DNA from: Nitrospira sp. | GTDB lineage: Bacteria > Nitrospirota > Nitrospiria > Nitrospirales > Nitrospiraceae | Assembly (NCBI GenBank): GCA_024331125.1 | Contig: JANDJI010000001.1 | Location: 94,001 to 158,000, forward strand | Length of the DNA: 64,000 nucleotides | Direction of reading: 5' to 3' | Part shown: piece after piece, positions 23,941-50,015 of the stretch | How the letters are laid out: each line of letters opens with the position of its first letter | Position numbering within the stretch: the stretch's first letter is position 1 | Translations under genes and position numbers: made by a program | Notes under the pieces: generated by a model | The model's input: only the letters and a program-made list of their open reading frames with translations | Told to the model about the DNA's origin: nothing | The model's database searches: none

Positions 23941-23977
23941 CTTGTCGAACCTCGCCGTCCTCGCCCCCTTGTCGAAC
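23941..23977. repeat. Direct repeat CTTGTCGAAC before the ATP-grasp-like gene
   Basis: CTTGTCGAAC occurs at 23941-23950 and again at 23968-23977, a spacing of 27 bases. It sits in the 198-base gap between divergent genes, just ahead of the ATG at 23988. It could bind a regulator. The gap also has the palindrome CCGGCGGCCGCCGG at 23861-23874 and no clear -35/-10 pair. Confidence 0.3.
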
Positions 23978-23987
23978 GTTGAGGCCC

Positions 23988-33534: not shown

Positions 33535-34896
33535 ATGGAATCCATGGCCGCTACAGCCATTCAACAAAATCACGACCGAACCAGATGCGACGTGCTGGTC
33601 GTGGGGGGCGGCCCCGCCGGAGCGGCCGTTTCCACTTTGCTCGCGGGAAAGGGCTGGAACGTCCACGTCCTGGAAAAAGACCGCCATCCGCGCTTCCACA
33701 TCGGCGAATCGTTGCTTCCACATTCGCTCCCGATGCTCGAACGGCTGGGCGTGCTGTCCGAAATCGAAAAAATCGGCATCCTCAAGTACGGAGCCGAGAT
33801 CGTCTCTCCCTACCACGGCCGATCCCGCATTCTGTACTTCTCCAAGGCGCTCGACGGCTCGCAACCGTTTGCTTATCAAGTCAAACGGGCGGAATTCGAC
33901 AAGATCTTGATCGACAACGCCGTGGCCAAAGGAGTCCATCTCCATGAAGGGGTCCGAGCCAAGCACGTGGAGTTTCGTCCCGGCTCGACGCACTTGGTTC
34001 AGGCCGACGATCAAACCGGACGATCGCTGACGTACGAAGCCGATTTCGTGATCGACGCCAGCGGCCGCGACACCTTCCTCTCCGCTCAGCTCGGCGGCAA
34101 ATCTCGCAACCCCCATCACAACAGTGCCGCGATCTTCGGCCATTTTGAAGGGGTCCGACGGCTGCCGGGGCGGGACGAGGGCAACATCAGCATCGTGTGG
34201 TTCGACCACGGCTGGTGGTGGATCATTCCATTTAAGGACGGCACGACCAGCGTCGGCGCCGTGTGCTGGCCTTCCTACATCAGCACGAGAAAGGTCCCGT
34301 TGGAACAATTCCTGTGGGACACGATCGCCCTTTGCCGACCGGTGGCCGAACGGATGGCGAACGCGAAATTACTGGGACAGGCCTATGCCGCCGCCAACTA
34401 TTCCTACCGGCGAACGACCATGAGAGGCGACGGCTATCTGATGGTGGGCGACGCCTTCGCCTTCATCGATCCCGTGTTTTCCAGCGGCGTCCACCTGGCG
34501 CTCAACAGCGCCACGCTGGGAGCCGAGGTCGTGGATGCCTACTTGCGGAAGTCTCCCGACTATCCGCATCGCGTGAAAGAGTTCGAGCGGCTCGTCCGCC
34601 TCGGCGTCAACACGTATTCTTGGTTCATTTATCACTTCACCCAACCGGCCTTCCGCGCTTTGTTCATGTCGGAAGGGTCGGTCTTCAAGATGGAAGAGGC
34701 CGTGCTCTCGATCCTGGCGGGCGATGCCTTCGGAAAGTCGCCGACCCAAATTCCCCTGTTCCTGTTCAAAATGGCCTATTATTTAATTTACCTGTTCAAC
34801 TTCAGGGACAATCAAGCCGCATACCGACGACGAATCCGGGGCGTGCCGGAAACAGTCACCGCGCTGAAGGACTATGCCGTTCCGCCGCCCTCATAA
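33535..34896 (+). CDS. Flavin-dependent halogenase-like FAD oxidoreductase
   Basis: This is a 453-residue FAD protein of the PheA/TetA-type fold. GGGPAG (24-29) binds the ADP moiety, GESLLP (57-62) follows, and DASGRD lies at 174-179. Two halogenase marks are kept: a Lys at the expected active position (K84, ILKYGAEI) and WxWxIP as WWWIIP (227-232). Related proteins occur in xanthomonadin and flexirubin clusters, whose products can be brominated or chlorinated. It could halogenate the aryl head group, or act as a reductase/hydroxylase. No dedicated flavin reductase gene is adjacent. The next gene, 21 bases downstream, is the chorismatase. Confidence 0.82.
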   Translation: MESMAATAIQQNHDRTRCDVLVVGGGPAGAAVSTLLAGKGWNVHVLEKDRHPRFHIGESLLPHSLPMLERLGVLSEIEKIGILKYGAEIVSPYHGRSRILYFSKALDGSQPFAYQVKRAEFDKILIDNAVAKGVHLHEGVRAKHVEFRPGSTHLVQADDQTGRSLTYEADFVIDASGRDTFLSAQLGGKSRNPHHNSAAIFGHFEGVRRLPGRDEGNISIVWFDHGWWWIIPFKDGTTSVGAVCWPSYISTRKVPLEQFLWDTIALCRPVAERMANAKLLGQAYAAANYSYRRTTMRGDGYLMVGDAFAFIDPVFSSGVHLALNSATLGAEVVDAYLRKSPDYPHRVKEFERLVRLGVNTYSWFIYHFTQPAFRALFMSEGSVFKMEEAVLSILAGDAFGKSPTQIPLFLFKMAYYLIYLFNFRDNQAAYRRRIRGVPETVTALKDYAVPPPS

Positions 34897-34917
34897 CGCG
34901 ATCGAGGAACGACGCGC

Positions 34918-35964
34918 ATGACATCGGCATCGACGCGCCGAGCGCCCTCCGTCGCCCGTGGCACGCCGCGGACACCGTCTCATTTACACGTCTCATACAT
35001 CGAACCACGCACATTGCAGACCCTGCTTGATTCGGCGACGCCGGAACTGATGGCGGTCGTTTCTTTCGGGCAACCCCTGCCTTACGACGTCTCCTGCCCC
35101 GTCATGGCTCCCGATCTTCCTCAGATTGCCGGCTCCCCGTTGATTGAAGTTTGGACGTCGGCCCGTCCGGTTCACACCGCGACCGACGGAAGACTCTCCA
35201 CGGCCATGAACGGGGAGTGGCTCATCGGTGCCTTCAGCTTGGATGAGCCGCCGGATCAGCCGTTGGACGCGCTGACCTATGACGCGTATCGAGCCATCCT
35301 GCGCCGTCTCAATGATTCCGGCTATCCGCACCTGTGCCGCATTTGGAACTACTTCCCCCGCATCAATGACGACCAAGACGGACTGGAGCGGTACCGGCGG
35401 TTCTGTGTGGGCCGGCACCAGGCGCTGGCGGAATCGCTGCCCGGCTTCCCCTGCTCCCTGCCTGCCGCCACGGCGGTCGGGACACAATCCGGTCCGCTCC
35501 AGATCATGTTTCTCGCAAGCACCGAACCGGGCGATCATCTCGGCAACCCAAGACAGATGAACGCGTACGAGTACCCCGCGGAGTACGGCCCGCGCAGCCC
35601 CTCGTTCGCGCGGGCGACCTTGTTTCGATCGGATCAAGACAATGTCTTATTCATTGCCGGCACGGCCAGCGTGGTCGGACATGCCAGTCGGCACATCGGC
35701 CGACCGGCCGACCAGACGCGCGAGTCGATTTGCAATATCCTGACCGTTCTCGAACGGGCCGGGGCGATCGGCAACACCGATTTTCTGGATAAAGCAAGCC
35801 TCGCGATGTACAAAGCCTATGTGCGGGACACCGGCTCGCTCTCTGAAATTCGCGGCGCGCTTCAGCGATCGCCCCTGTCCTCACGGCCTCTTTTGTTTCT
35901 GCAGGGCGACCTGTGCCGAAAAGAATTGCTCGTTGAAATCGAGGGCCTGATCTTTTCCGAGTAG
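34918..35964 (+). CDS. xanB2: Chorismatase of the FkbO/Hyg5/XanB2 family
   Basis: This 348-residue protein shows the chorismatase signatures in order: RIWNYFPRIN (141-150), GRHQAL (166-171), NAYEYPAEYGPRSPSFARA (215-233), IAGTASVVGHAS (246-257) and LQGDLCRKELLVEIEG (328-343). The family hydrolyses or eliminates pyruvate from chorismate. XanB2 members give 3- and 4-hydroxybenzoate, the starter for xanthomonadin; FkbO members give a dihydroxycyclohexadiene carboxylate. Context with ACP, AMP ligase and KS genes favours the XanB2 type. GAGG precedes the ATG. The first 20 residues are polar and extra. Confidence 0.87.
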   Translation: MTSASTRRAPSVARGTPRTPSHLHVSYIEPRTLQTLLDSATPELMAVVSFGQPLPYDVSCPVMAPDLPQIAGSPLIEVWTSARPVHTATDGRLSTAMNGEWLIGAFSLDEPPDQPLDALTYDAYRAILRRLNDSGYPHLCRIWNYFPRINDDQDGLERYRRFCVGRHQALAESLPGFPCSLPAATAVGTQSGPLQIMFLASTEPGDHLGNPRQMNAYEYPAEYGPRSPSFARATLFRSDQDNVLFIAGTASVVGHASRHIGRPADQTRESICNILTVLERAGAIGNTDFLDKASLAMYKAYVRDTGSLSEIRGALQRSPLSSRPLLFLQGDLCRKELLVEIEGLIFSE

Positions 35965-35973
35965 TCACGCACC

Positions 35974-36900
35974 ATGGAATCCGGTTCCTTCCGACGCATC
36001 GGGCAAGAAACCCACGAAACCGCCGAACGGCGATTTCACTTCACGATCGACTGTGATTGGGTGCCCGGCTCGCAAGCCGGTCTGGAACGACTGTTAACCC
36101 TTTGCAACAAGCACCGGATCACGGGGACGATCTTTTTTGCCGGCCGCTTCGCCGAAGCATCGCCGGACTTGGTCCGGGATTGTCATCGGCGCGGGCATGA
36201 ACTGGGCACTCACGGCTGGGCCCACGGCAGCTTGGAAGAGGATGAAGATTTCCGGCTGGCGAGCTACGAGCAACAACGGGAGTGGATCCGGCTCGCGACC
36301 GACGCCGTCGAAAGCGCGTCCGGCGTCCGTCCGGTCGTCTTCAGGGCGCCCAATCTCCGCATCGGCGAAGCGACCTTTCGGGCCTTGGCCGACGAAGGGT
36401 ATCGATTCGATTCCTCCGTCCCCGCCAGGCGTTTCGACATGGGATTCGGACGAGTGCACTATACCGACTACTTTTGGGCTCCGCTCTCGCCATATCGCCC
36501 TTCTGATCGAGATCTGGGCAAACGGGGTCAACACGCCATCGTGGAGATTCCTCCCTCGGCCTGCCTGTTCCCCATCAATCTCGCCGCCCTGAGGGTGCTG
36601 GGGCTCCCGACGCTCATGTCCATGATCCATTGGATCTGCCGGCGGTCGCCTCACCTGGTGTTCTACTGTCATCCGTTTGAAGTACTCCACGCCAAGGACC
36701 AGCGATTCCCCCCAAACATGTCTAAATGGAATCAACGGGGCATGAGCCCGGCCAATCTCTCTCTCGTGGACACCTTCATCGAGTCGGTGCTCGACCTCGG
36801 CTATGTCTCGGACACGATCTTCAGCGCTATCCCCCGACAAATCGGCTTCCATTGCCCGATCGTACCGGAAGCCGTCGGCTGTCAATCCGATCATGCTTAA
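35974..36900 (+). CDS. Polysaccharide deacetylase (NodB homology domain)
   Basis: This 308-residue protein has NodB motifs. The first Asp pair is in TIDCDW (D26, D28), the metal His pair is in THGWAHG (H80, H84), FRAPNLRIG is motif 3, and YCHPFEV gives the late His. There is no signal peptide, so it may be cytoplasmic or act on a lipid-linked sugar at the inner face. It is 9 bases after the chorismatase gene. A deacetylase in the starter-supply transcript suggests that a glycan or amino-sugar decoration belongs to the pathway, with the GT2 at 37351 as possible partner. Confidence 0.83.
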   Translation: MESGSFRRIGQETHETAERRFHFTIDCDWVPGSQAGLERLLTLCNKHRITGTIFFAGRFAEASPDLVRDCHRRGHELGTHGWAHGSLEEDEDFRLASYEQQREWIRLATDAVESASGVRPVVFRAPNLRIGEATFRALADEGYRFDSSVPARRFDMGFGRVHYTDYFWAPLSPYRPSDRDLGKRGQHAIVEIPPSACLFPINLAALRVLGLPTLMSMIHWICRRSPHLVFYCHPFEVLHAKDQRFPPNMSKWNQRGMSPANLSLVDTFIESVLDLGYVSDTIFSAIPRQIGFHCPIVPEAVGCQSDHA

Positions 36901-36918
36901 CAAAAGGAGGGGCATGAA

Positions 36919-37329
36919 ATGAAACGGATACGGTCCATCACGGTTTTGCTGTGCGTCATGTGCATCGCGGTCGTCGGTTGCCGCGGCGGAGGGCAAATTT
37001 ATAACGTAAAAGACGCGCCGGTCGCGACCGCCACCGGCAAAGAAGCGACGCTGGATCAGGTCACGAAGGCCATCGTCGAGGCCGGGTCGAGGTTGGGATG
37101 GACCATGGCGGTCGTCAAACCCGGGCAGATCGTCGGCACGCTTCACATCAGAAGTCACACGGCGATCGTCGAAATCCCCTACACGACCAAAACCTACAGC
37201 ATCATCTACAAGGACAGCACGAACTTGAAATACGACGCCGAAAAGCAAACCATTCACGAAAACTATCGCGGATGGATTCAAAACCTCGACAATGCCATCA
37301 AAAGTCGCTTGTCCGGGTTGGGAGTCTGA
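36919..37329 (+). CDS. Small lipoprotein, unrecognised
   Basis: This 136-residue protein has a lipoprotein signal ending VVGC (Cys about 21). The mature part begins Arg/Gly-rich and forms an alpha/beta pattern (LDQVTKAIVEAGSRLGWTMAVVKPGQIVGTLHIRSHTAIVEIPYTTKTYSIIYKDS), resembling a BON/TPM-like surface domain without a clear match. AGGAGG lies before a decoy ATG-AAA-TGA; the true ATG is 5 bases later at 36919. It ends 22 bases before the convergent GT2 gene. Confidence 0.75.
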   Translation: MKRIRSITVLLCVMCIAVVGCRGGGQIYNVKDAPVATATGKEATLDQVTKAIVEAGSRLGWTMAVVKPGQIVGTLHIRSHTAIVEIPYTTKTYSIIYKDSTNLKYDAEKQTIHENYRGWIQNLDNAIKSRLSGLGV

Positions 37330-37350
37330 CCGCCCACTTCGTTCGCCGTT

Positions 37351-38154
37351 CTACTTCCGCAGCAGCGTGACGGCCATCCGGTCGCCGCAACGACGGCCGG
37401 GCATCGCCCGGCCGAGGCGTCGACGCAATAGGCAATACAATCCCACCGGATACATCCCTCGGCTGACCAGTTTCCATGCCACCATTTTGGTGATTCGCAC
37501 AACGTCCAGCAATGGCCGAAAGTGACTGGGGCTCGACCCCGATCGGCGCCCCACGCCGACGGCCACGTTTTTAATTACCGTCCCTTTCCTGGCGGCTTCG
37601 ATCAGAATCTCACTCTCATAGACGAAGCTTCTGTCACACCCGTGCGGAACCTTCAGGTCCTGGAGCAACGTGGACGGATACAAGCGGAATCCGGACTGGC
37701 TGTCTTCGATCGCTTGTCCCGACGCCCAACCGATCCAAAAGTCGGCGATGCAGTTGGCAAGGTAGCGCCAGAACGACACCCGCCGTTGATCCCGCCGCCG
37801 GGCGCCGATGAGAAAGACGCTCGGATCGTCCTGAGACCGCTCGATGAATGCGGGAATCTCTTCCGGCGCATGTTGCCCGTCCGCATCCAGTGTAATAATC
37901 CCGACCGCCCCTCGGGACAACGCATACTCAAAGCCTCTCGCCAAGCTGCCGGCCTTGCCTCGATTCGCCTCGTTGCGCAGCACCGTGACGTCCAAACCGG
38001 CCAGGGCTTGGTCGGTTCCATCGGACGACGCATCATCCACGACAATCACGTTCGGGCAGCGGCGTCGCGCACGCGCGGCCACATCGCGAACCGTCGCCGC
38101 CTCGTTATAAGCCGGGATGACCACCCAATACGCCTCACGTGCCACCTTCGACAT
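37351..38154 (-). CDS. Family 2 glycosyltransferase of the aryl polyene cluster
   Basis: This 267-residue GT-A enzyme has WVVIPAYNEA, VVDDASSDGT and ITLDADGQH (metal-binding DxD), then DSQSGFRLYP. A C-terminal hydrophobic/Arg-rich part follows. In xanthomonadin and many aryl polyene clusters a GT2 is fused or adjacent to a dehydratase, and it may glycosylate the aryl-polyene lipid. It is the last gene of the minus operon, 3 bases after FabG. A perfect 8-base-arm hairpin within its 3' end (37395-37413) is inside the coding region. Confidence 0.87.
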   Translation of the reverse strand: MSKVAREAYWVVIPAYNEAATVRDVAARARRRCPNVIVVDDASSDGTDQALAGLDVTVLRNEANRGKAGSLARGFEYALSRGAVGIITLDADGQHAPEEIPAFIERSQDDPSVFLIGARRRDQRRVSFWRYLANCIADFWIGWASGQAIEDSQSGFRLYPSTLLQDLKVPHGCDRSFVYESEILIEAARKGTVIKNVAVGVGRRSGSSPSHFRPLLDVVRITKMVAWKLVSRGMYPVGLYCLLRRRLGRAMPGRRCGDRMAVTLLRK

Positions 38155-38157
38155 CCT

Positions 38158-38883
38158 CTATGCCATCCCGCCGTTGATCCCGATCACCTGACCGGTGATG
38201 TACCCCGCTTGATCCGAAACGAGGAATGATACCAGCGCGGCGACTTCCTCCGGCGTGCCCGCCCGTTTCATCGGCACCAGCGCTTCGATCTGTGGCCGGG
38301 TGAACGACGCCTTGACTGAAGGAGACTCAATCAGTCCCGGCGCCACGACATTCACGGTGATCCCCCGAGACGCCACTTCCCTCGCCAACGACTTGCTCGC
38401 GCCGTGCAAACCGGCCTTGGCCGCGGCATAGTTGCTCTGGCCCCGGTTTCCGATCACGGCCGCCACGGACGAGACGGAGACGATCCGCCCCCAGCGAGTC
38501 CCGATCATCGGCAACAACAACGGCTGCGTCACATTGAAGAATCCGTTGAGCGAGAGATCGATCACTCTCGTCCATTGTTCGCCGGTCATCCCGGCCATGG
38601 GCGCGTCGTCGTGCAGTCCGGCATTGTTGACGACGATCTGAATCGGCCCGTCGCGCAACAGCGATTCCAGCGCGCTTCTGGTCGCTTGCGCATTGGTCAC
38701 GTCAAAAGACACGCTCGTGGCCTGTCGGCCCATAGCGAGAATCCTTTGCGCCACCGCCTCGGCCGATTCACGGTTTCGGCATCCGTGCACGATAACGGCA
38801 TGCCCGTCCGCGGCCAGCCGTTCGGCAATGGCTGATCCGAGCGTCCCGCTCGCCCCCGTGATTAACGCACGCGCGCCCATCAT
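38158..38883 (-). CDS. 3-ketoacyl-ACP reductase (FabG-like) of the aryl polyene cluster
   Basis: This 241-residue SDR has TGASGTLGSAIA, NNAG, a catalytic Ser in VSVSSVAA, and YAAAKAG with Tyr and Lys. TGQVIGINGGMA is the classic FabG ending. It would reduce the beta-keto group after each condensation. Two in-frame ATGs (38883, 38880) overlap the hotdog stop (ATGATG/TGA), showing tight coupling. It resembles ApeQ of E. coli in role. Confidence 0.9.
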   Translation of the reverse strand: MMGARALITGASGTLGSAIAERLAADGHAVIVHGCRNRESAEAVAQRILAMGRQATSVSFDVTNAQATRSALESLLRDGPIQIVVNNAGLHDDAPMAGMTGEQWTRVIDLSLNGFFNVTQPLLLPMIGTRWGRIVSVSSVAAVIGNRGQSNYAAAKAGLHGASKSLAREVASRGITVNVVAPGLIESPSVKASFTRPQIEALVPMKRAGTPEEVAALVSFLVSDQAGYITGQVIGINGGMA

Positions 38884-39317
38884 GCCGGTTCCGATTCCAA
38901 GAAAATCGAGAGCCGCCCGCTCAGCACCTTCCGCCCGCCTGACGAAAGAGCGAACCGGTAGAGGCCGCTCCGATCATCTCCGAACAGACGCACCGCGTCG
39001 ATCAAAAGATCTTCAAGACAGTCGTCGAGACGATCCGTTTCGAATATCACATCCCGCAATCCGCCGACGACGCCGATCGACTTGCCTGCCAAGGGCCTTC
39101 CGGCAAGGAGGCCCATATGAACGCCGGCCGTCTGGGCCGCGTATTCCACTCCCACGACCGCGTCAAGCCGTTCGCCGTGCCGCAGGGGATTCGCCGGATC
39201 GCGATGCGATTGCGCCCGGCATCGAATCGTCTCGTGATCCCACCGTTCCACGCAATCCAGCAGACGCATCGCCCCCGCGTGCGGCAGCAATTCGCCCAGT
39301 TCGTCTTTGTTCAGCAT
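38880..39317 (-). CDS. Hotdog-fold 3-hydroxyacyl-ACP dehydratase (ApeP-like)
   Basis: This 145-residue hotdog protein begins LLPHAGAMRLLDCVERWD, the mark of the ApeP/XanJ-like dehydratase group. AAQTAGVHMGLLAG is the central helix. It would dehydrate 3-hydroxyacyl-ACP to the trans-enoyl form that stays in the polyene. Its start lies inside the end of the CLF gene, and its stop overlaps the FabG start. A second dehydratase (45157) of different subtype is in the same operon. Confidence 0.82.
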   Translation of the reverse strand: MLNKDELGELLPHAGAMRLLDCVERWDHETIRCRAQSHRDPANPLRHGERLDAVVGVEYAAQTAGVHMGLLAGRPLAGKSIGVVGGLRDVIFETDRLDDCLEDLLIDAVRLFGDDRSGLYRFALSSGGRKVLSGRLSIFLESEPA

Positions 39318-40135
39318 CGGCAGGGCTCGATGGTCAGTTGAAGCCGTTGGTTCTCAAGCCAAGCAAGCTCGACGGTTCGCGGAGCGGCGGCCGCGACGGC
39401 GCAGAGAAGGGGCAGCGATCGAGCCGCGGGGTTATTCAGCCGAAGCCGCTCCAAGGCGTCATCGGCAAGACGCTCGGCAAGATACTCGGGAAAACACGCG
39501 GATTCGCCGGCGGGAGCCTGTTCCAGCCCCAATCGCAGGATGACCGTCGAGTCGCGGACGGGCGGGCTCAACACGAACGCCGCAGCGAATCCCTCGGTGA
39601 TGGGCCTGGCCTCGTCCAATGGAGCCGGCACGGCCAAATCATAGGTCACCAGCAAGACAGGCCGTTGCTCCTCTCGCACCGTCGCGACCGCTTCCACCAA
39701 CCCCGCGGCGAACGAGTCGTCATAGCACGAAAGCGCGGTCGAGGACTGCCGGCCGGTCGTGGCGATTCCCCAATAGCCGGCGGCCGTATTATGCACGGAT
39801 TGATGAAACAGGGTGGGCGAGACCCGCCGCTCCTCCGTCGCCAACACGCGGCACAGTTGATCGAAGACCAACATCTCCCCCCCGGATGACGCGAAGACAG
39901 TCGGGATGTCGCGAGGGTCCAGCCCCGATTGTTCAATCGCCTCCTGCGCGACCTGGACGGCCCATCGGACGGAGTCGCTGCTGCGGCGCCGCTCGTTCGG
40001 AGGAAGGATCGCCGCCTCCGGAGAAGGAACGGCGGTCGGTTGGTAGGGACGATCACCGGCCAACACCGCGCGGCTTTCTCTCCAGCAAGGCAGGCCGGGC
40101 GCGAGCAGGCCGATACCGTCTATTGCAACGTCCAT
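39311..40135 (-). CDS. Beta-ketoacyl synthase chain-length-factor-like protein
   Basis: This 274-residue KS-like protein is about two thirds the length of a normal KS and matches the ketoacyl-synt_2 group (ApeC type). It has DGIGLLAPGLPCW, FASSGGEML and TLFHQSVHNTAAGYWGIATTG. The normal TACSS nucleophile site is not seen; SCYDDSFAAG lies near it. It probably pairs with the full KS as a chain-length factor. The ATG at 40135 overlaps the KS stop (ATGA); the frame further upstream is not real. Confidence 0.85.
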   Translation of the reverse strand: MDVAIDGIGLLAPGLPCWRESRAVLAGDRPYQPTAVPSPEAAILPPNERRRSSDSVRWAVQVAQEAIEQSGLDPRDIPTVFASSGGEMLVFDQLCRVLATEERRVSPTLFHQSVHNTAAGYWGIATTGRQSSTALSCYDDSFAAGLVEAVATVREEQRPVLLVTYDLAVPAPLDEARPITEGFAAAFVLSPPVRDSTVILRLGLEQAPAGESACFPEYLAERLADDALERLRLNNPAARSLPLLCAVAAAAPRTVELAWLENQRLQLTIEPCRC

Positions 40136-41349
40136 CACAGTTTCCCCAACACCAAGCTGCAATTGTTTCCGCCGAATCCGAAAATGTTGCTCACGACGCA
40201 CGACAGCGCGCCGAACTGATGGTCGCGGATGACCCGACATTGCAAGGCGGGGTCCACCCGCCGACAGTTGAGCGTGCCGGGCATCAGCCCCTTCGTCAGG
40301 CACAGCGCCGAAATGACCGCTTCCGTGACGCCGGCCGCGCCCAAGGTGTGGCCGGTCCACCCTTTGGTCGAGCTGCACGCCGGCCGCGCCCCGAAGACAC
40401 TGTACACGGCCTTGTCCTCCACCTCGTCGTTGACCCTCGTGGCCGTCCCGTGCAAGTTGACGTATTCCACCGCCTCCGGTCGGATGCCCGCGCGCGCCAG
40501 CGAATCCCGGATCGCCCGGACGGCGCCGGCTCCTTCCGGATGGGGATGCGACATATGGTAACCGTCCGTGCTCTCGCCGTAGCCGAGCAGCGCCACCGCC
40601 CCTCGCCCGCCCGCCCGCTCGACCCGCTCCAACAACGCATAGCCTGCGGCTTCGCCCAATGACAGGCCGTCTCGATCTTCATCGCAGGGGCGGCACGGAT
40701 CGGACGACAGCAGTTGCAAGGCGGAAAAACCGTAGAGCGTCGTATGGCAAAGACTGTCGGCTCCGCCCACCACGGCGGCGTCACAGAACCCGGCCCGCAT
40801 CAACCGGGCCGCGCTCGCAAAGACCTTGGCGCTGGATGAACAAGCCGTGGAGACGACCATGGCCGGTCCCTCCAACCCGAGACACGTCCTGACGAAGTGC
40901 CCCAGCGAAAACATATTGTGCGTGTACCGGTATCGGGAGACATACCAGGCGGGAAGCGCCCCCGTGCGAGGATCGCGCGCCCGATAGGCGTGTTCCGTTT
41001 CAAGAATACCGGAGGTGCTGGTGCCCATGACCACGGCAACCCGATGCGCGCCATAGCGCTGCTTGGCCTCGGCCACCGCCACCGTGAATCCATCCTGCTG
41101 GAGACCAAGCCAGGCCAGCCGATTGTTGCGGCAATCGAAGGGCCGCAGGTCATGGTCGAGAGAAAAATCCTCAAGCCCCGCCACCCGCCCGATGTGCGTT
41201 TTCAACGCGACGTCTTCGAAGTCGCACGGCTTGAGCGCCGACCGGCGGGCCAGAATCGCGTCCAACACCGCTCCCGTCCCCCTGCCGTTGGCGGTGACCA
41301 GCGTGTAAGCGGACAAGACGAGCGGCGCCATGGGACCGCTAGGCGACAT
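40135..41349 (-). CDS. Beta-ketoacyl-ACP synthase II-like ketosynthase
   Basis: This 404-residue ketosynthase has the full Cys-His-His triad: C170 in STACSSS, H300 in LHGTAT and H334 in WTGHTLGAAG. It would extend the aryl-primed chain with malonyl-ACP. The start ATG at 41349 lies 11 bases inside the exporter gene. There is only one complete KS in the cluster, so it must do all extension cycles, probably with the adjacent CLF. Confidence 0.92.
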   Translation of the reverse strand: MSPSGPMAPLVLSAYTLVTANGRGTGAVLDAILARRSALKPCDFEDVALKTHIGRVAGLEDFSLDHDLRPFDCRNNRLAWLGLQQDGFTVAVAEAKQRYGAHRVAVVMGTSTSGILETEHAYRARDPRTGALPAWYVSRYRYTHNMFSLGHFVRTCLGLEGPAMVVSTACSSSAKVFASAARLMRAGFCDAAVVGGADSLCHTTLYGFSALQLLSSDPCRPCDEDRDGLSLGEAAGYALLERVERAGGRGAVALLGYGESTDGYHMSHPHPEGAGAVRAIRDSLARAGIRPEAVEYVNLHGTATRVNDEVEDKAVYSVFGARPACSSTKGWTGHTLGAAGVTEAVISALCLTKGLMPGTLNCRRVDPALQCRVIRDHQFGALSCVVSNIFGFGGNNCSLVLGKL

Positions 41350-43660: not shown

Positions 43661-44277
43661 GGTCCCGATCCCGGCGACAACGTCATCACCGACCGGTCGC
43701 CATCCGCGGTCCGGACCGTGATCGCGTTGATGCGGCCCTCCGAGCCGGACAGTTCGATGAAGTCGACCGGCGCGCCTCCGGCCCGATCGCGGGGACGTAC
43801 TCGCAAGATCCACCGGCGCTTCGTTCCCTCAAGAGCCGCGTCGTACTCCCGCGTCAGCCTCGCCGCGTCCCCGTCCAGCACGGCCCGAAACGTGTCGACG
43901 AACCACCGCAAACCGGGATACTCGTCCAGCGAAACGGTTTTCGTCACGTTCCGCCGTTCGCTCTCGATCGTCACGAAGTCGCCGTCGATGATGTACCGCT
44001 CCCGATAGGGCTCCCGCACGTCCTTCTCCAACCTCGACGGAGGAGTGAACCGCAAGACTCCCCGCGTGATCAGCGGTTTCGTCAACAGCGATGAATACGT
44101 GGCTTCCTCAAACGACACGCTGGGCTCCCGTCTCTCTTTCACGGAGGCCGCCACCTGCTCGATGGTCCACACGATCTCCGATCGATCGTCGGCAATCCCC
44201 TGAGCGGCGACGCCGATCACGGTCCAGATGAACGACACCGCCCATGCGGACACCGCCCGACTACCGCTCCGCATCAT
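43657..44277 (-). CDS. LolA-like periplasmic carrier
   Basis: This is a 206-residue protein. A signal peptide follows two in-frame ATGs at 44277 and 44274. The mature part has SFEEATYSSLLTKPLITRGVLRFTPPSRLEKDV, YIIDGDFVTIE and AALEGTKRRWILRVRPRD, as in LolA-related proteins of aryl polyene clusters. It would ferry the polyene lipid to the outer membrane. The start overlaps the acyltransferase 3' end, and the stop overlaps the exporter start. Confidence 0.83.
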   Translation of the reverse strand: MMRSGSRAVSAWAVSFIWTVIGVAAQGIADDRSEIVWTIEQVAASVKERREPSVSFEEATYSSLLTKPLITRGVLRFTPPSRLEKDVREPYRERYIIDGDFVTIESERRNVTKTVSLDEYPGLRWFVDTFRAVLDGDAARLTREYDAALEGTKRRWILRVRPRDRAGGAPVDFIELSGSEGRINAITVRTADGDRSVMTLSPGSGP

Positions 44278-45160
44278 CCCAAAATTCATAAAAATTGAAC
44301 CAGTTGTTCGGCGCGAGGCGGCAAGCCTCCTCCAGGCGCCCGGCGTACCGTTGAATGTCCCGATGCAAGAGGGCTTCCTGTTGATCACGAGATGTGCGCA
44401 CCCCGTCGCTGAACGATTCAAAATGCACGTCGTAGCGGTTCCCTCCCCGGTAGAAGCCGAAAAACAACACCGCCGGCGATCCCATAAGATGGGCCAGGCG
44501 CAACGCCCCCGTCGGAAATCGGGCCTCGCGCCCGAAGAACGTACACCCGATCGTCCGATCTCCTTGGGTCGCGCGATCGCCCATGACCCCGACGATTCCA
44601 CCCCGTTCCAAACATTCCTTGACCTGCAACATCGCTTCCACTCCGCCGGCCTGAATGACCGTATCGGCCACCGTCCTGTTCAACGTCCTCGTCAGACCGC
44701 GCATCAACGGCGCATTCTCCTCGTCCATTAAAACTCGAACGTCAAGGCGCCGCCGGAGCACCCCCACCGCGCGAACCACTTCGAAACTGCCGAGATGAGC
44801 TCCCAACAACAGACAGCCGCGCCCCTTGGCCAATTCATGATCCAACGTCTCCAACCCATAAAACCGGATGTCGAAGAGGTCGAACCGGCATCGGAGAAAA
44901 TACACGCGGTCGAGGATCGTCGCCGCGAAGGCGTAATAGTGGTGCAACAGATCCGACCACCCGGTCGAACGGCCGAGCGCCCGCTCGCGAAACCGGGCGA
45001 TCGCCCGGCGAGCGGCCCGGGACGCCACCAGAAAGTAGACGCAAATCGGATAGAGCAGGATGCGCGCAGCCGGACGACCGAGCGTCAGCGCCGCCCACGT
45101 CATGGCACGAACGCCCGCGCGGCTTCCACGCTCCCGCTGTCGACGCCACGCGAGGCTCAC
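44261..45160 (-). CDS. LpxL/HtrB-like acyltransferase
   Basis: This 299-residue lysophospholipid/lauroyl acyltransferase has the catalytic HLGSFE (H-x4-E) in LLLGAHLGSFEVVRA, GDRATQGDRTIGCTFFG and an N-terminal membrane anchor (ILLYPICVYFLVA). The start is the GTG at 45160, which overlaps the hotdog stop as GTGA; the first ATG would be at 45103. It probably moves the aryl-polyenoyl chain from the ACP to a lipid acceptor. No thioesterase is present. Confidence 0.88.
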   Translation of the reverse strand: MSLAWRRQRERGSRAGVRAMTWAALTLGRPAARILLYPICVYFLVASRAARRAIARFRERALGRSTGWSDLLHHYYAFAATILDRVYFLRCRFDLFDIRFYGLETLDHELAKGRGCLLLGAHLGSFEVVRAVGVLRRRLDVRVLMDEENAPLMRGLTRTLNRTVADTVIQAGGVEAMLQVKECLERGGIVGVMGDRATQGDRTIGCTFFGREARFPTGALRLAHLMGSPAVLFFGFYRGGNRYDVHFESFSDGVRTSRDQQEALLHRDIQRYAGRLEEACRLAPNNWFNFYEFWDDAER

Positions 45161-45528
45161 GCGCGTTCCGCCGGCGACGATTCGGTCGAAAACTCGACGG
45201 CGCCCGACGCCACGATCCGATCGCCCACTCGACACACGAACGCGGCGCGCTCGGGAGCCTTTCCGTCCGATTCAGCCGCCGATTCAGCGGCGGCTTCAGC
45301 GGCCGTTTCGACCGTCACTTCGACGGTGAGGAGTTCGTCCGGCTTGAGCGGAGAGGAAAACTTGACCGCCGGTAGCCCCGCCACGGGCTTCACCTTCCCG
45401 ATGCCGCCTCGTACCGTTTCCAACACCTCGTGAAGCACCAGCACCCCCGGCACAACCGGCCGGCCGGGGAAATGGCCGGCGATCGCCGGATGGTCGGCCC
45501 CGATCGAGACGGTCCGCCTACACGTCAT
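45157..45528 (-). CDS. FabZ-like 3-hydroxyacyl-ACP dehydratase (ApeI-like)
   Basis: This 123-residue hotdog protein has HPAIAGHFPGRPVVPGVLVLHEV with the catalytic His in HFPG. The sequence VEVTVETAAEAAAESAAESDGKAPERAAF holds an Ala/Glu-rich insert of about 18 residues between strands, made of short repeated units in the DNA (45265-45310). It overlaps the AMP ligase gene by 12 bases. It works with the ApeP-like enzyme at 38880. Confidence 0.87.
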   Translation of the reverse strand: MTCRRTVSIGADHPAIAGHFPGRPVVPGVLVLHEVLETVRGGIGKVKPVAGLPAVKFSSPLKPDELLTVEVTVETAAEAAAESAAESDGKAPERAAFVCRVGDRIVASGAVEFSTESSPAERA

Positions 45529-46870
45529 GGCCGTTTTGCTCTTTCCATCGCCGAATCATCTCATCGACAGATTCACGCGGCAGCTTCCCCGTTTCGTTTC
45601 GAGGCAGCCTCGGCACACGGACAAGCGGGCGCGGCAGAAAAACGGGATCGACACGCGCGCGCAACCGACGCAGAATCTCCTCGCTGCTCTTCCCCGGCGC
45701 CACCACGAACGCCATCAATCTGGTCACCAGCCCCGTTTCTTCGTCCGGCAGGACGAAGACTCCGTCGTGCACCCCCTCGATCTCCAATAATTTCGCGTTC
45801 AAATCGCCGATCGACACGCGATGTCCCGCCACGTTCACATGGTCGGCCTTTCGCCCGTGGACGACGAAGGTACCGTCGGAACCGACGGAAAGATGGTCCG
45901 GCACCGGAACCGGATCGGGCAGATACGGCGCCCGCACCGTACAGGAAGTCTCTTCTTGGACCACGCGCACGCCGTCCAGCGGTTTCCATCGGTCGCCCGC
46001 GATCGTGCGTCGTTCGGCGATGCTCCCCGCTTCGGCGAAGCCGAAAATTTCATGCACCGCCGACTGAAATTGCCGCTCGACCCGCCGCGCCAGGTCACGA
46101 GTCAGCGGAGCCGTCGCGGACAACACAAGCCCGCCGGGCGGCGCAAGAACGTTTTCGGCGATACAGGCTCGCAGGTGGAGCGGCGTGGTCACGAGCATCC
46201 ACCGCCCCGGCGCTTCGGTCAACACGTTCTGAATATCGGCGGGGAAGAGGGGACGTCCCGCGTGCATCGCCAGTCCGTGCATAATCGGCAACATCACGGA
46301 AGCTTCCAGCCCGAACATGTGCTGATGCGGCACGGTCGCCACCACCGTCACGCGATCCCTCTCCTTGATGCCGAGCCGCGATCCGGTCGCCCGAGCTACG
46401 GCCGTCAAGGCGCCCCACGTTTTTCGATTCGGCACCGGCTTCCCCGTCGTGCCGGACGTGAACGCCACGGCCACGACCTGGTCCAACGGGATTCGTGGAA
46501 CGACCGCCGGCATCGGCACGGAAGACGGAGCCGGCCGAATGTGTATGGGAATCGACAGCATTTCTTCACGTTGCTCGTCCCGATCGGTCAGCGCGTAACT
46601 GCCGGGAAAGTCGTCGGCTATACGACGGAGGGCATGGGGCGCCCGGCTGTGAGGCAGCAACGTGACTTGGCCGCGGAGGATCGCCGCGGCGAATCCCACC
46701 AGAAATTCATAGCGGCTCGCGGCAAGATTGAGGACCGTGGAACGGTCGGGCAAGGATTCGGCCAGGGAACGCGCATCGGCTAAGAATCGGCCGGCCGTGC
46801 GCGACGCTTCTGGGCCCCATGCCACAACGTCGTCGGAATCATAGGGGCCGAACAACACCGTCTCGTGCAT
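45518..46870 (-). CDS. AMP-dependent acyl-ACP/CoA ligase (XanA2/ApeH-like)
   Basis: This 450-residue ANL enzyme has the P-loop TSGTTGKPVP (138-147), the aromatic site motif IFGFAEAGSIAERRT, DGTFVVHGRKADHVNVAG and the C-terminal catalytic Lys in RNETGKLPRE. It would adenylate hydroxybenzoate and load it on the ACP encoded just upstream (15-base gap). The size is short for the family, as in xanthomonadin clusters. Confidence 0.88.
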   Translation of the reverse strand: MHETVLFGPYDSDDVVAWGPEASRTAGRFLADARSLAESLPDRSTVLNLAASRYEFLVGFAAAILRGQVTLLPHSRAPHALRRIADDFPGSYALTDRDEQREEMLSIPIHIRPAPSSVPMPAVVPRIPLDQVVAVAFTSGTTGKPVPNRKTWGALTAVARATGSRLGIKERDRVTVVATVPHQHMFGLEASVMLPIMHGLAMHAGRPLFPADIQNVLTEAPGRWMLVTTPLHLRACIAENVLAPPGGLVLSATAPLTRDLARRVERQFQSAVHEIFGFAEAGSIAERRTIAGDRWKPLDGVRVVQEETSCTVRAPYLPDPVPVPDHLSVGSDGTFVVHGRKADHVNVAGHRVSIGDLNAKLLEIEGVHDGVFVLPDEETGLVTRLMAFVVAPGKSSEEILRRLRARVDPVFLPRPLVRVPRLPRNETGKLPRESVDEMIRRWKEQNGHDV

Positions 46871-46885
46871 GGTCCGCGCAGCCCG

Positions 46886-47158
46886 TCACTTCGTGCGGTT
46901 TTTCTCGATGGCCTTGGCCAACGCCCGCAGAGACGAAAAGATGGCTTTGATCTCCGGGTCGCTCGACTTGAGCTGATACCCGTATGTTTGCGAAATGGCC
47001 AGCGAGAGCTCAAGCGCGTCGATCGAATCAAGTCCCAACCCCTCGCCGAACAGGGGGGCCTCCGGTTGAATGGACGTCGGATCGATCTTGAGCTTGAGCG
47101 TCCGCACGATCAGCTCGGCAAGGTCTCTCTCGATCGGCGACGAACCGGAATGTTCCAT
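46886..47158 (-). CDS. Acyl carrier protein of the aryl polyene cluster
   Basis: This is a 90-residue ACP with the phosphopantetheine serine S45 in LGLDSIDALEL. The helix II/III pattern (LSLAISQTYGYQLKSSDPEIKAIFSSLRALAKAI) is complete. The ATG at 47158 starts just after the methyltransferase stop. It is the only ACP in the cluster, whereas E. coli aryl polyene clusters have two and Xanthomonas has one. Confidence 0.92.
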   Translation of the reverse strand: MEHSGSSPIERDLAELIVRTLKLKIDPTSIQPEAPLFGEGLGLDSIDALELSLAISQTYGYQLKSSDPEIKAIFSSLRALAKAIEKNRTK

Positions 47159-47160
47159 GC

Positions 47161-47961
47161 CTACACCTGCTCCGCTTCTTTCACCGCCCGATAGTCGTGC
47201 AACAACCCGCCGAACCACTCCTTGACACGACAGTCGCCGAAACCCGATTTCCGCAGTGTCTGGACGATCGTGGGAGGCGGCACACAGTGTTCCGTCGTCT
47301 CCCACCAGTACGCCATCAACCGTTTCAGATCTTGATTGCCGGTCCCTGCGGCAAACGCCGTCCCCAGCACGTCCCTGATATACCATCGCAACAGCCGATA
47401 CAAGACCATGGACCGGGGACGAGAAATCTCCAGCAGCAGAACGATCCCTCCCGGTTTCAGCACGCGCCGATATTCGGCAAAGGCCGCTCTGAGATCCGAT
47501 ACGTGCCGGAGCGCGTACCCCATGCTCAGAAAATCGAAAAACCGGTCGGGAAACGGCAGACGCTCTCCGACCCCTCGCACGAGATTGCGGCACGGCCCCT
47601 TCCGAGCTTCGCGCAGCATGCCGATGCTGGGGTCAAGTCCGACGACCAAGCCGTACGGCCCCACCAACCTCAAAGCGCATTGCGTCACCAACCCGGGTCC
47701 GCAGGCGACGTCCAACACCCGCATGCCCGGTTTCAACCCCGCCAGTTGGAGCGCCTTCTTTCGATACCACAGACCGGATCCGAAACCGGTGGCTTTATCG
47801 ATGTTCCGATAATGAGCGGCGGTCCGATTAAACAGCTCGTTGAGAAACCCCTGTCTGTCCTCGACCCTTTCGTAATATCGCCGCAGCGGCGGATGGGGCG
47901 CGACGGGTCGATCGTCCGAACCCATGTCGCGCTGATTTTCCCGGTCGGCGGATCGAGTCAT
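47161..47961 (-). CDS. UbiE-family SAM-dependent methyltransferase
   Basis: This 266-residue class I methyltransferase has RVLDVACGPG (motif I), VVGLDPS, MGYALRHVSD and VLKPGGIVLLLEI. It could methylate the aryl head group. The start is uncertain: the ATG at 47961 has GGCAGGA upstream, and the ATG at 48039 directly follows the DUF4105 stop. It lies just ahead of the ACP. Confidence 0.87.
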   Translation of the reverse strand: MTRSADRENQRDMGSDDRPVAPHPPLRRYYERVEDRQGFLNELFNRTAAHYRNIDKATGFGSGLWYRKKALQLAGLKPGMRVLDVACGPGLVTQCALRLVGPYGLVVGLDPSIGMLREARKGPCRNLVRGVGERLPFPDRFFDFLSMGYALRHVSDLRAAFAEYRRVLKPGGIVLLLEISRPRSMVLYRLLRWYIRDVLGTAFAAGTGNQDLKRLMAYWWETTEHCVPPPTIVQTLRKSGFGDCRVKEWFGGLLHDYRAVKEAEQV

Positions 47962-48040
47962 ATGAGAAATCCTGCCCCCTGCCTTTCCACTCTTGTAGCA
48001 AGACGTTTCATCGCCGGGCAAGAGCTGGTCTTTTTCCATC

Positions 48041-49987
48041 TCAAAAGAACGCGTGGATCGCAAACACCACGTCGTTGTCACGATCACGATGGGTGTACTC
48101 CAGTCGGGCCGCCCAATCGCGGGCCAGCGTATAGCGCGACCCGACATGCCAGCGAATGTCATCGGATCGGTCACCGAGGGGATACCGCAGATAGGAGCCC
48201 GACCCCATGAGCTTCCAGCGATCCGTCACGTCCGCCAACAGGCCCATCGTCATACCTCCTCCCACCCGATGAAGGTCCCGGTAAGCAGGACTGACGTTGG
48301 CTTCGGCTTCGGCAAAGAGATAGAACACTTCTCGTTTGAAGACGGCCGCCGACTCAACGGCCCCGCCGACCCCTCCACCGAACACGCCGTTGCTGCACAA
48401 CCGACAGCCGTCGTGCCTGATCGTCTGCATGCCCACGTTCACCCGCCACGAGGGCGCGCGAAAGAGCTCGTCGATCGGAGAAAGCGACAGGATATTGATC
48501 AATGTGGCCCGTTCGACCCTGGTCTGTTCGGCTCGGTTGTAATGCCGGACCGCCAGGCCGAGCGCCTCGATCTGGGCATCCGGCGTGTACCCCTCTTCAG
48601 GATCGAGAAGATCGTGATAGAGCGCCCGGACGGACGCTTCCTCGAAGGTGTCTTGATTCCGCCAGCCTCCTCCCATCGTCACACGGGTCGTCCGGTGCCC
48701 TGCGTCCGGACGTTTCGTATAGGGGGGAATCTCCACGTCCGGCGAGGGGATCGGCAATCGGCTCCGCTCGGTCAAGATGCGTCTGTTGCGCTCTTTGTAG
48801 ACCGTCACCTCCGGATCGTCGCTTTCGCTCTTGTAGCGCAGATAGTCCGACACCACGTCCAGCGCCAACACGCGCCTGGGCACCGGCAGCTCCTTGAAGG
48901 AGGCGTCGCCGGCGAAGTCCGGATCCTGCGCCAGCCTCTTGACAAGCTTCGATTCATGGGCCGTGAGCAGCGCCCGTTTCCGCTTGATGATCGTACTGCG
49001 GGACGGTCGGTAGATCGCCTCCTTGACCAACCCCGGATAGTCCACGACCGCCCGCACCGTGTCGGCTGGAATCGTCCAGAAATGGAACCGATCCCGCAGG
49101 CGCAACTCAGGATTCGCATATTCCAGGAGCGACAAAATGTGGTACGAGCAATTTTCCTTGAAAAAAAAGTAATCGAAATAGGCGTTGCCCAGCTCCCACG
49201 CGTGCATGAGGAGCCGATCAAGCTGAGCGGGAGAGAGATCGAGACGGTACTCCCACATGTCCCGATTCTCGATGTCTCGGTACTTCTGGACCTTCAGGTA
49301 ATAGGGGGGAGTGGAAAAAAACCCCTTGTAGCCCCCGAAGATCCCCATAAAGGCGAACTCCACCCCCGCGCCATCCGGCACGTCCGCGGCATAGTCGATG
49401 GTATAGGCCAACAGTCGCGTCTGTTCCGTCTGACCCCGCTGATCGATCCGCAAGAAGGTATGGCCGAACATGGAAGCCGGATTGTTCAAGAACGCCGCGG
49501 GGAAGATCAAACTGACGCCCTCGGGATTCAGTTCGGCCCGCCATCGTTCATACCGCTCGCAAACCGGCGGTGGAAGCCGTTGCTCGTCGAACCCCAGTCG
49601 TTCCTTGAGCCAATGGTACCGCGCAATGAACACGCACTGAGCCGGCTGTTTCGACCGCCCGACCGGCTCGGCGGAGAAAAATGCCCGGATCGTCGCCTCC
49701 AATTCGGCCCGCGGATCATATTTGCCGCGGGGCGACAAGAAAAACCCCGGGTCGTCCTCCTCGCTGATCACCCTTTCCCATAGATCCGTCCCGTAGTGAA
49801 GCAAAAGATGCCATTCCCGCTCATCGGCCAGACGAGAGAGAGCCGCCTGCTCGATCAATTCCCGTTGGTAGCTTTCCGAATCAAACGACTCGGCCATCTG
49901 GCGCCAAGACCCCGAGAGCAGCACGACGATGGCGAGTAGAAAGCGAATCACCGCATCAGAGGGGAACCATAACGGGGCTTCCATCAT
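48041..49987 (-). CDS. DUF4105 (Lnb N-terminal-like) periplasmic protein
   Basis: This is a 648-residue protein. An N-terminal hydrophobic segment (IRFLLAIVVLLSG) is a signal or anchor. The DUF4105 core has NNPASMFGHTFLRI, IFGGYKGFFSTPPYY and FKENCSYHILSLLE, with the conserved Cys and His. The C-terminal third ends in a beta-barrel-like stretch (ARDWAARLEYTHRDRDNDVVFAIHAFF). Such proteins sit in the envelope and are suspected hydrolases. It is the head of the aryl polyene operon, though not a core gene elsewhere. Confidence 0.8.
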   Translation of the reverse strand: MMEAPLWFPSDAVIRFLLAIVVLLSGSWRQMAESFDSESYQRELIEQAALSRLADEREWHLLLHYGTDLWERVISEEDDPGFFLSPRGKYDPRAELEATIRAFFSAEPVGRSKQPAQCVFIARYHWLKERLGFDEQRLPPPVCERYERWRAELNPEGVSLIFPAAFLNNPASMFGHTFLRIDQRGQTEQTRLLAYTIDYAADVPDGAGVEFAFMGIFGGYKGFFSTPPYYLKVQKYRDIENRDMWEYRLDLSPAQLDRLLMHAWELGNAYFDYFFFKENCSYHILSLLEYANPELRLRDRFHFWTIPADTVRAVVDYPGLVKEAIYRPSRSTIIKRKRALLTAHESKLVKRLAQDPDFAGDASFKELPVPRRVLALDVVSDYLRYKSESDDPEVTVYKERNRRILTERSRLPIPSPDVEIPPYTKRPDAGHRTTRVTMGGGWRNQDTFEEASVRALYHDLLDPEEGYTPDAQIEALGLAVRHYNRAEQTRVERATLINILSLSPIDELFRAPSWRVNVGMQTIRHDGCRLCSNGVFGGGVGGAVESAAVFKREVFYLFAEAEANVSPAYRDLHRVGGGMTMGLLADVTDRWKLMGSGSYLRYPLGDRSDDIRWHVGSRYTLARDWAARLEYTHRDRDNDVVFAIHAFF

Positions 49988-50015
49988 TCGACGGAAGCCC
50001 CGGGAATCAACGTGG

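Follow-up and report, generated by a model that had tools for sequence, protein, structure and literature searches.

Layout of the locus

The window, a stretch of 64,000 nucleotides from a Nitrospira genome, contains 16 genes at 33535–48039 that are arranged as two convergent transcripts, as revealed by open reading frame (ORF), Pfam, NCBIfam, pairwise, and PDB searches (Table 1). The plus-strand transcript covers 33535–37329, and the minus-strand transcript runs from 48039 down to 37351, leaving a gap of 21 bases. Several likely start codons fall internal to the longest ORFs of the cluster genes. A preceding sequence-only reading had named 14 genes in two facing transcripts, all of which are found in its span; it omitted the polysaccharide deacetylase and the ApeA-like lipoprotein, and its end at 49987 takes in an Lnb/DUF4105 gene that finds no match in either reference set of the pairwise search.

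These reference sets are the ape cluster of Escherichia coli CFT073, whose gene letters are given from gene order, and the xanthomonadin-type plasmid cluster of Azospirillum ramasamyi (NZ_CP029832). Fourteen of the 16 genes match in one or both, with 13 matching the Azospirillum and ten the E. coli cluster. Neither a tRNA nor an Rfam match was found in the window, and promoter and terminator scans yielded about as many sites as shuffled sequence (4 versus 3.6 and 17 versus 16.2, respectively).

Table 1. Genes of the aryl polyene locus and the adjoining Lnb gene (window positions).
Position	Strand	Length (aa)	Assignment	Main match
33535–34896	+	453	FAD-dependent halogenase-like oxidoreductase, arcA-like	Trp_halogenase PF04820, 9.9e-28
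34918–35964	+	348	FkbO/Hyg5-type chorismatase, predicted 3-hydroxybenzoate maker	PF21168, 1.4e-39
35974–36900	+	308	Polysaccharide deacetylase family protein	PF01522, 1.3e-18
36919–37329	+	136	ApeA-like lipoprotein	41% over 106 residues to E. coli CFT073 ApeA (named from gene order)
37351–38154	-	267	Family 2 glycosyltransferase (GT2), ApeJ N-part/arcE-like	PF00535, 5.5e-24
38158–38883	-	241	FabG-type ketoreductase, ApeQ-like	NF004200, 346 bits (cut-off 273)
38880–39317	-	145	Hotdog dehydratase, ApeP-like	Profile match 6qsr_B, 4e-12
39311–40135	-	274	Chain length factor, ApeC-like	PF13723, 2e-31
40135–41349	-	404	ApeO-type ketosynthase	NF006618, 510.9 bits (cut-off 407)
41339–43660	-	773	MMPL exporter, ApeM/arcP-like	PF03176, 2.4e-15
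43657–44274	-	205	LolA-like periplasmic carrier	LolA_3, 2.2e-15
44261–45103	-	280	LpxL-type acyltransferase, arcR/ApeJ C-part	PF03279, 1.2e-8
45157–45528	-	123	FabZ-like hotdog dehydratase, ApeI/arcS-like	FabA PF07977, 9.7e-7
45518–46870	-	450	AMP ligase, ApeH/arcT-like, predicted aryl-starter loading	PF00501, 4.4e-16
46886–47158	-	90	Acyl carrier protein, ApeE-like	NF006617, 106.7 bits (cut-off 70)
47161–48039	-	292	UbiE-type methyltransferase	PF01209, 2.6e-25; 45% to methyltransferase at Azospirillum locus
48041–49987	-	648	Lnb/DUF4105 periplasmic protein	PF13387, 8.7e-58; PF25222; PF25225

Aryl polyene-type enzymes and predicted starter

The pairing of an ApeO-type ketosynthase (KS) with a chain length factor (CLF), as known from aryl polyene (APE) systems, is present in the cluster. 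The KS finds its top PDB match in 6qsp_A (7e-74), followed by weaker FabF-type entries, and is also supported as ApeO type by a tree. The CLF has 6qsp_B as its top PDB match (6.5e-10) and is 48% identical to its Azospirillum counterpart and 30% to E. coli ApeC; 6qsp is presumably the ApeO:C complex. The FabG-type ketoreductase (66% to Azospirillum, 47% to E. coli ApeQ) is accompanied by both an ApeP- and an ApeI-type dehydratase, the latter being the weaker member. The ApeP-like protein has no match in the Pfam search and is linked to E. coli ApeP by profile (probability 95) and to Azospirillum by 45% pairwise identity. 6qsr_B, from an entry with the PDB title ApeI:P complex, heads its PDB profile matches and also its fold matches; as the structure model is poor (pLDDT 57), the fold matches serve as supporting evidence only. 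The ApeI-like protein looks closer to FabZ than to ApeI among PDB entries, with FabZ entries being best (6n3p, 1.5e-8) and 6qsr_A of the ApeI:P complex reaching just 0.013; pairwise, it is 39% identical over 74 residues to Azospirillum and 26% to ApeI.

A dedicated acyl carrier protein (ACP; 55% to Azospirillum, 46% to ApeE, 31% to ApeF) and a putative aryl-activating AMP ligase (46% to Azospirillum, 24% to ApeH) supply the remainder of the core. KS and ACP score above the APE-family cut-offs (NF006618 and NF006617). An ApeR ketosynthase and a second ACP of the E. coli/Xenorhabdus type are absent from the ORF list and the pairwise matches of the window cluster. Both are likewise unannotated in the Azospirillum stretch fetched and, hence, their absence is regarded as a feature of the subtype.

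The in-cluster chorismatase expected of a xanthomonadin-type system is present, with 5ag3, which we take to be Hyg5, as its top PDB match (6e-41) and 201.6 bits against TIGR04444, under the 325-bit cut-off. Its residues Gly248, Cys333, and Glu340 are kept as G240, C327, and E334 of Hyg5, and Ala186 deviates from G173, a number obtained by offset from the numbering in PMC7170507. According to excerpts of that source, CH-II (Hyg5) chorismatases possess three characteristic residues, Gly164, Gly231, and Cys318 of Nat-hyg5; two of the three are kept here, and the first site, Ala186, is alanine in 40 of 41 alignment rows, which were not de-duplicated. Because the cluster contains both a chorismatase and an AMP ligase, the aryl starter is predicted to be 3-hydroxybenzoate (3-HBA). 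Chorismatases of the CH-II subfamily give 3-HBA alone, and those of CH-III give 3-HBA plus 4-HBA. Priming by an aromatic lyase (HAL/TAL) was rejected, as the aromatic ammonia lyase family PF00221 is absent in 12 of 12 genomes, including the host genome, with five of 14 control genomes matching. For Azoarcus sp. BH72, excerpts of PMC3949708 describe that 3-HBA is formed by ArcB, that ArcT acted on 3-HBA, and that the pigment was lost upon insertional mutation of the KS and AMP-ligase genes. In Azoarcus, 4-fluoro-3-hydroxybenzoate feeding gave an M+18 shift. The starter of the E. coli system, in contrast to the predicted 3-HBA, is 4-HBA (excerpts of PMC8253772).

APE-derived enzymes could by now make some other lipid, such as one whose acyl chain is unsaturated or cyclised in an unusual manner, which would suit the accessory genes unlike those of ape and arc. 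However, KS, CLF, both dehydratases, ACP, AMP ligase, and chorismatase stay together, the core genes are under purifying selection, and an aryl-primed polyene route fits best, so such a product is improbable. The cluster is best described as a pathway to a xanthomonadin-type aryl polyene lipid, to which we assign a probability of roughly 0.85. The sequence-only reading had made the same assignment, and it is well supported by the KS and ACP cut-offs, the PDB and pairwise matches, and synteny.

Predicted tailoring, anchor, and export functions

The FAD enzyme is 56% identical to the FAD protein of the Azospirillum cluster. Eight of its ten PDB matches are labelled halogenase or alkylhalidase, and a W-x-W-x-I-P motif together with a lysine, presumably the catalytic one, is conserved in 33 of 33 alignment rows, which were not de-duplicated. 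Set against these features, all NCBIfam matches shown are under cut-off and include monooxygenases and reductases, and one PDB match, 3nix, is a flavoprotein/dehydrogenase; moreover, the Azoarcus pigment is reported as non-brominated in excerpts of PMC3949708 despite the annotation of arcA as a halogenase. The odds are about even that the enzyme acts as an oxidoreductase or hydroxylase instead of a halogenase and that the aryl polyene pigment carries no halogen, which is compatible with the xanthomonadin-type assignment.

The MMPL exporter, the LolA-like carrier, and the acyltransferase that accompany APE systems are all present by Pfam and pairwise search. The exporter is 41% identical to Azospirillum and 24% to E. 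coli ApeM, the carrier 32% to Azospirillum (24.8 bits against the flexirubin LolA2 model, cut-off 125), and the acyltransferase 45% to Azospirillum and 30% to the C-terminal half of ApeJ. The GT2 is equally distant from E. coli ApeJ and the Azospirillum GT2 (31% each), and the ApeA-like lipoprotein contains a lipobox-like VVGC. Deacetylases likewise occur in the Azospirillum and Azoarcus (arcN) clusters; the pairwise search gave no match between the window deacetylase and that of Azospirillum. The methyltransferase possibly O-methylates the aryl ring. The Lnb gene abuts the methyltransferase gene, and in another genome (G189) Lnb lies beside a lone chorismatase at a locus (L073) about 640 kb away from the APE operon; whether it is a pathway gene is uncertain.

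Compared by annotation, not by sequence, with the arc/xanthomonadin system of Azoarcus (excerpts of PMC3949708), the cluster shares halogenase-like, chorismatase, deacetylase, methyltransferase, GT, KS, CLF-like, FabG, two dehydratase, acyltransferase, LolA, exporter, AMP ligase, and ACP genes. It occupies one locus as opposed to two, arcC (MipA), arcD, and arcU have no counterpart found in the window's genome, and resorcinol genes are not expected there. In detail, the 88.9%-complete host genome yielded no MipA gene, no arcU-like gene in a search that was queried with the Azospirillum gene occupying the arcU position and had no positive control, and just three weak paralogs (26–28% identity) of an arcD-like second acyltransferase. 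The Azospirillum cluster resembles that of the window by 13 proteins at 31–66% pairwise identity (FAD enzyme, GT2, FabG, both dehydratases, CLF, KS, MMPL, LolA, acyltransferase, AMP ligase, ACP, and methyltransferase). It differs by a chorismatase that is unannotated in the stretch fetched, whereas the window has one, and by its own extra acyltransferase, MipA gene, and a hypothetical gene that separates ACP from AMP ligase. With E. coli, KS, CLF, KR, ApeI, ACP, AMP ligase, MMPL, GT, AT, and ApeA (pairwise) as well as ApeP (profile) are shared; ApeD, ApeG, ApeK, and ApeN have no pairwise counterpart in the cluster, and neither do ApeR and the second ACP. Excerpts of PMC8253772 state that almost every ape gene is required for the full lipid in E. 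coli and that ApeR is required in vitro for initiation in Xenorhabdus and dispensable in E. coli. Because ApeD, ApeG, ApeK, ApeN, and ApeR are absent, anchor assembly, and perhaps initiation, must differ from E. coli and Xenorhabdus. Calling the cluster complete, as had been done from the letters, is too strong given the weak arcD-like paralogs and the lack of arcU-like, MipA, second ACP, and ApeR genes.

Azoarcus, with very similar polyene genes, produces a flexirubin-/arcuflavin-like hybrid, in which the polyene acid forms an ester with a dialkylresorcinol instead of being placed on a glycolipid-type anchor (excerpts of PMC3949708), and the flexirubin LolA2 and FlxB models match here, both under cut-off. 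The host genome, however, has just one gene for KASIII (ACP_syn_III_C), located some 2.3 kb away from one of FabF type, so that none is left for a DarB cyclase. A resorcinol ester is therefore judged very unlikely, a missing stretch being possible in a genome that is 88.9% complete.

Predicted pathway, host, and distribution

For the xanthomonadin-type pathway, every chemical step as well as the location and protective role of the pigment is deduced from characterised relatives. The chorismatase would convert chorismate to 3-HBA, which the AMP ligase would load onto the ApeE-like ACP. The KS:CLF pair would elongate this starter with malonyl units, and FabG and the two hotdog dehydratases would reduce and dehydrate in each round; enoyl reduction would not take place, and the resulting acid would be a conjugated aryl polyene. 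Capping of the phenol is the probable role of the methyltransferase, and the aryl ring may be halogenated or oxidised by the FAD enzyme. GT2, acyltransferase, and deacetylase would make or attach a lipid/sugar anchor; the MMPL, LolA-like, and ApeA-like proteins would carry the lipid to the outer membrane, where it may quench oxidants and perhaps light. Judged from sequence, the product is very probably a yellow, membrane-bound aryl polyene pigment in comammox Nitrospira.

All eight named relatives are Nitrospira MAGs, from which the genus is assigned since a 16S search of the 88.9%-complete host genome was empty. As an AmoA-family gene is present, the host is probably a comammox Nitrospira that oxidises ammonia and nitrite, in line with the Nitrospira-like, possibly nitrifying organism suspected earlier. 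Such a pigment, provided that it is made, would serve comammox Nitrospira as a defined antioxidant or light filter of the outer membrane and would be relevant to how nitrifiers tolerate light and oxidants. The E. coli aryl polyene protects from peroxide but gives no protection under nitrosative challenge (excerpts of PMC8253772). The extension to nitrifiers, which had been considered notable, is already in print: excerpts of PMC9765116 report antiSMASH aryl polyene clusters in N. inopinata (comammox), N. lenta, N. japonica, and N. sp011405515, which share genus and cluster class with the window and are likened to it by class alone. As a gene-family observation, the window cluster is incremental, being a fresh example of a well-known pigment family.

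An APE-type KS above cut-off occurs in 17 of 40 sampled Nitrospira genomes and in 32 of 295 genomes of the phylum. A chorismatase above cut-off is found in 26 genomes, 23 of which also have an APE KS (P ~6e-24, uncorrected for kinship). From the flavoprotein gene through to that of the AMP ligase, the gene order is repeated in six of eight named Nitrospira loci (the remaining two are truncated) and in nine further type A stretches, with all 16 genes called in L087 and one to four of the 16 uncalled in each other stretch. Every cluster gene is under purifying selection, with dN/dS values of 0.04–0.35 from comparisons with two to five relatives per gene (saturation affected two values; comparisons below 50 codons were dropped). 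With its gene identities and family placement, the cluster is real and conserved, and it is probably working. The xanthomonadin-type route is retained across many Nitrospira species, beyond Proteobacteria.

Sister genera carry a second, compact operon type (type B) without a linked chorismatase, and in seven of eight type B genomes both chorismatase and aromatic lyase are unfound genome-wide. Tentatively, Nitrospiraceae may therefore comprise at least two separate aryl polyene lineages: type A, as in the window and comammox, primed by a chorismatase and equipped with deacetylase and GT2, and type B of the sister genera, with a starter from a source other than an operon chorismatase. Both would lead to a non-resorcinol aryl polyene lipid by means of one acyltransferase, which would shield nitrifiers from oxidants or light. 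Plasmid loci of Variovorax and Caballeronia, entered only as rows of the KS tree or chorismatase alignment, show an isolated KS or chorismatase, or lack annotation. Near the type B operon, genome G149 has a MerR/B12-binding gene; it was rejected as a light regulator, with the host counterpart residing on another contig (C3) and G149 being the only one of 14 KS-positive genomes searched in which it is near the operon.

Gene content and family placement

The aryl polyene (APE) cluster is arranged as two facing transcripts, with four plus-strand genes (33535-37329) and 12 minus-strand genes (48039 to 37351) that lie 21 bases apart. This layout and all genes named in the sequence-only reading were found again by ORF listing and by Pfam, NCBIfam and PDB sequence searches. 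That reading, which placed a xanthomonadin-type cluster at 33535-49987, did not list a polysaccharide deacetylase and a small lipoprotein, and its end takes in an Lnb/DUF4105 protein besides the facing gene set.

Features added to the gene list or lying at the cluster end
Feature	Position	Strand	Remark
Polysaccharide deacetylase	35974-36900	+	new to the list
Small ApeA-like lipoprotein	36919-37329	+	41% identity over 106 residues to E. coli CFT073 ApeA, itself assigned from gene order
Lnb/DUF4105 protein	48041-49987	-	Pfam

The Lnb/DUF4105 and DUF3015 genes (48041-50528) are located ahead of the methyltransferase gene. The same pair adjoins a lone chorismatase in the sampled genome G189 (stretch L073), and in G048 (L077) an Lnb relative is found next to an ape cluster resembling that of E. 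coli. A 13-pair hairpin at 50002-49973 overlaps the listed Lnb gene start; the gene may actually begin further downstream, or the hairpin may set DUF3015 and Lnb apart.

The profile check proposed for Ape proteins supports the assignment: the ketosynthase (KS) scores 510.9 bits (NF006618 cut-off 407) and the ACP 106.7 (NF006617 cut-off 70). In the PDB sequence search, the top matches of KS and chain length factor (CLF) are 6qsp_A and 6qsp_B, from the ApeO:ApeC structure. A 145-residue protein without a Pfam match finds 6qsr_B by profile search at 4e-12 ('The Dehydratase Heterocomplex ApeI:P from Xenorhabdus doucetiae'), whereas a 123-residue protein favors FabZ entries (1.5e-8) over 6qsr_A (0.013) in the PDB search. 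In a midpoint-rooted tree of 39 rows, the KS groups with APE ketosynthases, apart from both housekeeping-type FabF rows and ApeR (support 100/100).

Compared with known clusters, the Azospirillum ramasamyi plasmid cluster matches 13 of the 16 window genes (31-66% identity) and E. coli ape ten, together 14. The chorismatase has no match in either reference, none being annotated in the Azospirillum stretch; neither has the deacetylase, though Azospirillum contains one of the same family. By listing, the Azoarcus arcuflavin clusters hold the same kinds of gene, and insertion into the KS or AMP-ligase gene there abolishes the pigment (excerpt of PMC3949708). Two window proteins resemble E. coli counterparts, the ACP being ApeE-like and the small lipoprotein ApeA-like; by deletion, ApeE is the ACP whose loss abolishes the pigment, and ApeA is required for full lipid assembly (excerpt of PMC8253772). 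Unlike E. coli, the window cluster has no counterparts of ApeR, ApeD, ApeG, ApeK, and ApeN. According to the same excerpt, ApeR is apparently dispensable in E. coli, although in vitro initiation in Xenorhabdus required it; the other four contribute to the full lipid in E. coli. Without these four, attachment must differ from that in E. coli.

Predicted starter unit and tailoring

In the alignment, chorismatase G248, C333, and E340 correspond to Hyg5 Gly240, Cys327, and active-site Glu334. Ala186 replaces Hyg5 Gly173, and alanine occupies this site in 40 of 41 rows, which may include duplicates. Gly173 is equated by offset with Nat-hyg5 Gly164, described as one of three residues characteristic of the 3-hydroxybenzoate (3-HBA) subfamily (excerpt of PMC7170507). 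The predicted product is 3-HBA, alone or together with 4-HBA. In Azoarcus, 3-HBA is formed by ArcB and then acted on by ArcT (excerpt of PMC3949708). A search of 12 genomes, this one included, gave no match to an aromatic ammonia lyase.

The FAD enzyme has eight of ten PDB matches labeled halogenase-type and one labeled flavoprotein/dehydrogenase; W-x-W-x-I-P and a lysine are kept in 33/33 rows (possibly including duplicates). The Azoarcus pigment is reported as non-brominated despite the annotation of arcA as a halogenase (excerpt of PMC3949708). The odds that this enzyme halogenates the pigment are even. Just one KASIII gene occurs in the genome, which makes a resorcinol ester unlikely.

Host and earlier reports

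The chorismatase has eight named relatives, all from Nitrospira MAGs. The genome measures 2.95 Mb, with a completeness of 88.9% and a contamination of 0.24%. A contig other than that of the window carries a gene of the AmoA family, scoring 329.8 bits against a cut-off of 27.5; the search matched two genomes and 0/14 controls, so there is no outside positive control. Given correct binning, this gene points to a host that is probably a comammox Nitrospira. The suggested extension of the family to a nitrifier holds for the host, not for its newness: aryl polyene clusters are reported for N. inopinata, N. lenta, N. japonica, and N. sp011405515 (excerpt of PMC9765116), and the window cluster thus belongs to a known kind of system. 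One is also listed for a Nitrospiraceae MAG (excerpt of PMC13055281), and Nitrospirae are among the phyla with type II KS-CLF matches (excerpt of PMC10132072). In the open-access literature, mostly surveyed at listing level, no description of chorismatase-type gene content in Nitrospira was found.

Two squalene/phytoene synthase family genes occur in the genome, and therefore the polyene need not be the sole protective lipid. Elsewhere in the window, a succinyl-CoA ligase/ATP-citrate-lyase-like pair (61172-63235) and an FAD_binding_2 protein (63388-63990) are possibly reverse TCA genes. A 1007-residue ORF without a Pfam match (22605-25628) is followed downstream by genes for a radical SAM protein resembling lysine-2,3-aminomutase and for a two-domain dCTP deaminase.

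Operon types and possible exchange

The KS exceeds the NF006618 cut-off in 32 of 295 genomes sampled from the phylum (17/40 of the genus, 12/39 of the rest of the family, three elsewhere), and the chorismatase its cut-off in 26, 23 of which also have the KS. The remaining three comprise one 64% complete genome and two with weak chorismatase scores (32.3 and 29.5 bits). KS without a chorismatase match occurs in nine: G224, whose KS contig spans only 9.5 kb, six of sister genus g2, one of sister genus g7, and G048. The six g2/g7 stretches read exhibit a compact operon, type B, in the order ACP-AMP ligase-ApeI-acyltransferase-LolA-MMPL-KS-CLF-ApeP-FabG, with all ten genes called in L079 and L080 and one to four not called in each of the other four; a deacetylase precedes the ACP in all three stretches tested. 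Type B KS form their own clade (eight rows, 100/100), separate from that of the chorismatase-bearing type A of the window (21 rows, 97/90); the tree does not settle how the two join. In G189, ~640 kb separate a type B operon from the lone chorismatase. G048, from a different family, contains an E. coli-type ape set (matches to ApeG/H/J/K/L/M/O/P/Q/R) and so adds a third type of APE cluster for the phylum.

Near the type B operon of G149, a regulator with MerR and B12-binding domains is encoded (L071:18418-19338), by its domains presumably CarH/LitR-like; regulation by light would be in keeping with photoprotection.

All cluster genes show dN/dS of 0.04-0.35 (two to five relatives per gene; two values saturated). 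Against L028, pS is 0.34-0.42 for the four plus-strand genes and 0.54-0.82 for the ten minus-strand genes compared; against L033, it is low in the flavoprotein only (0.36), with 0.51-0.81 in the remaining genes. This patchy divergence, spanning 33535-46870, suggests that parts of the cluster were exchanged among Nitrospira species.
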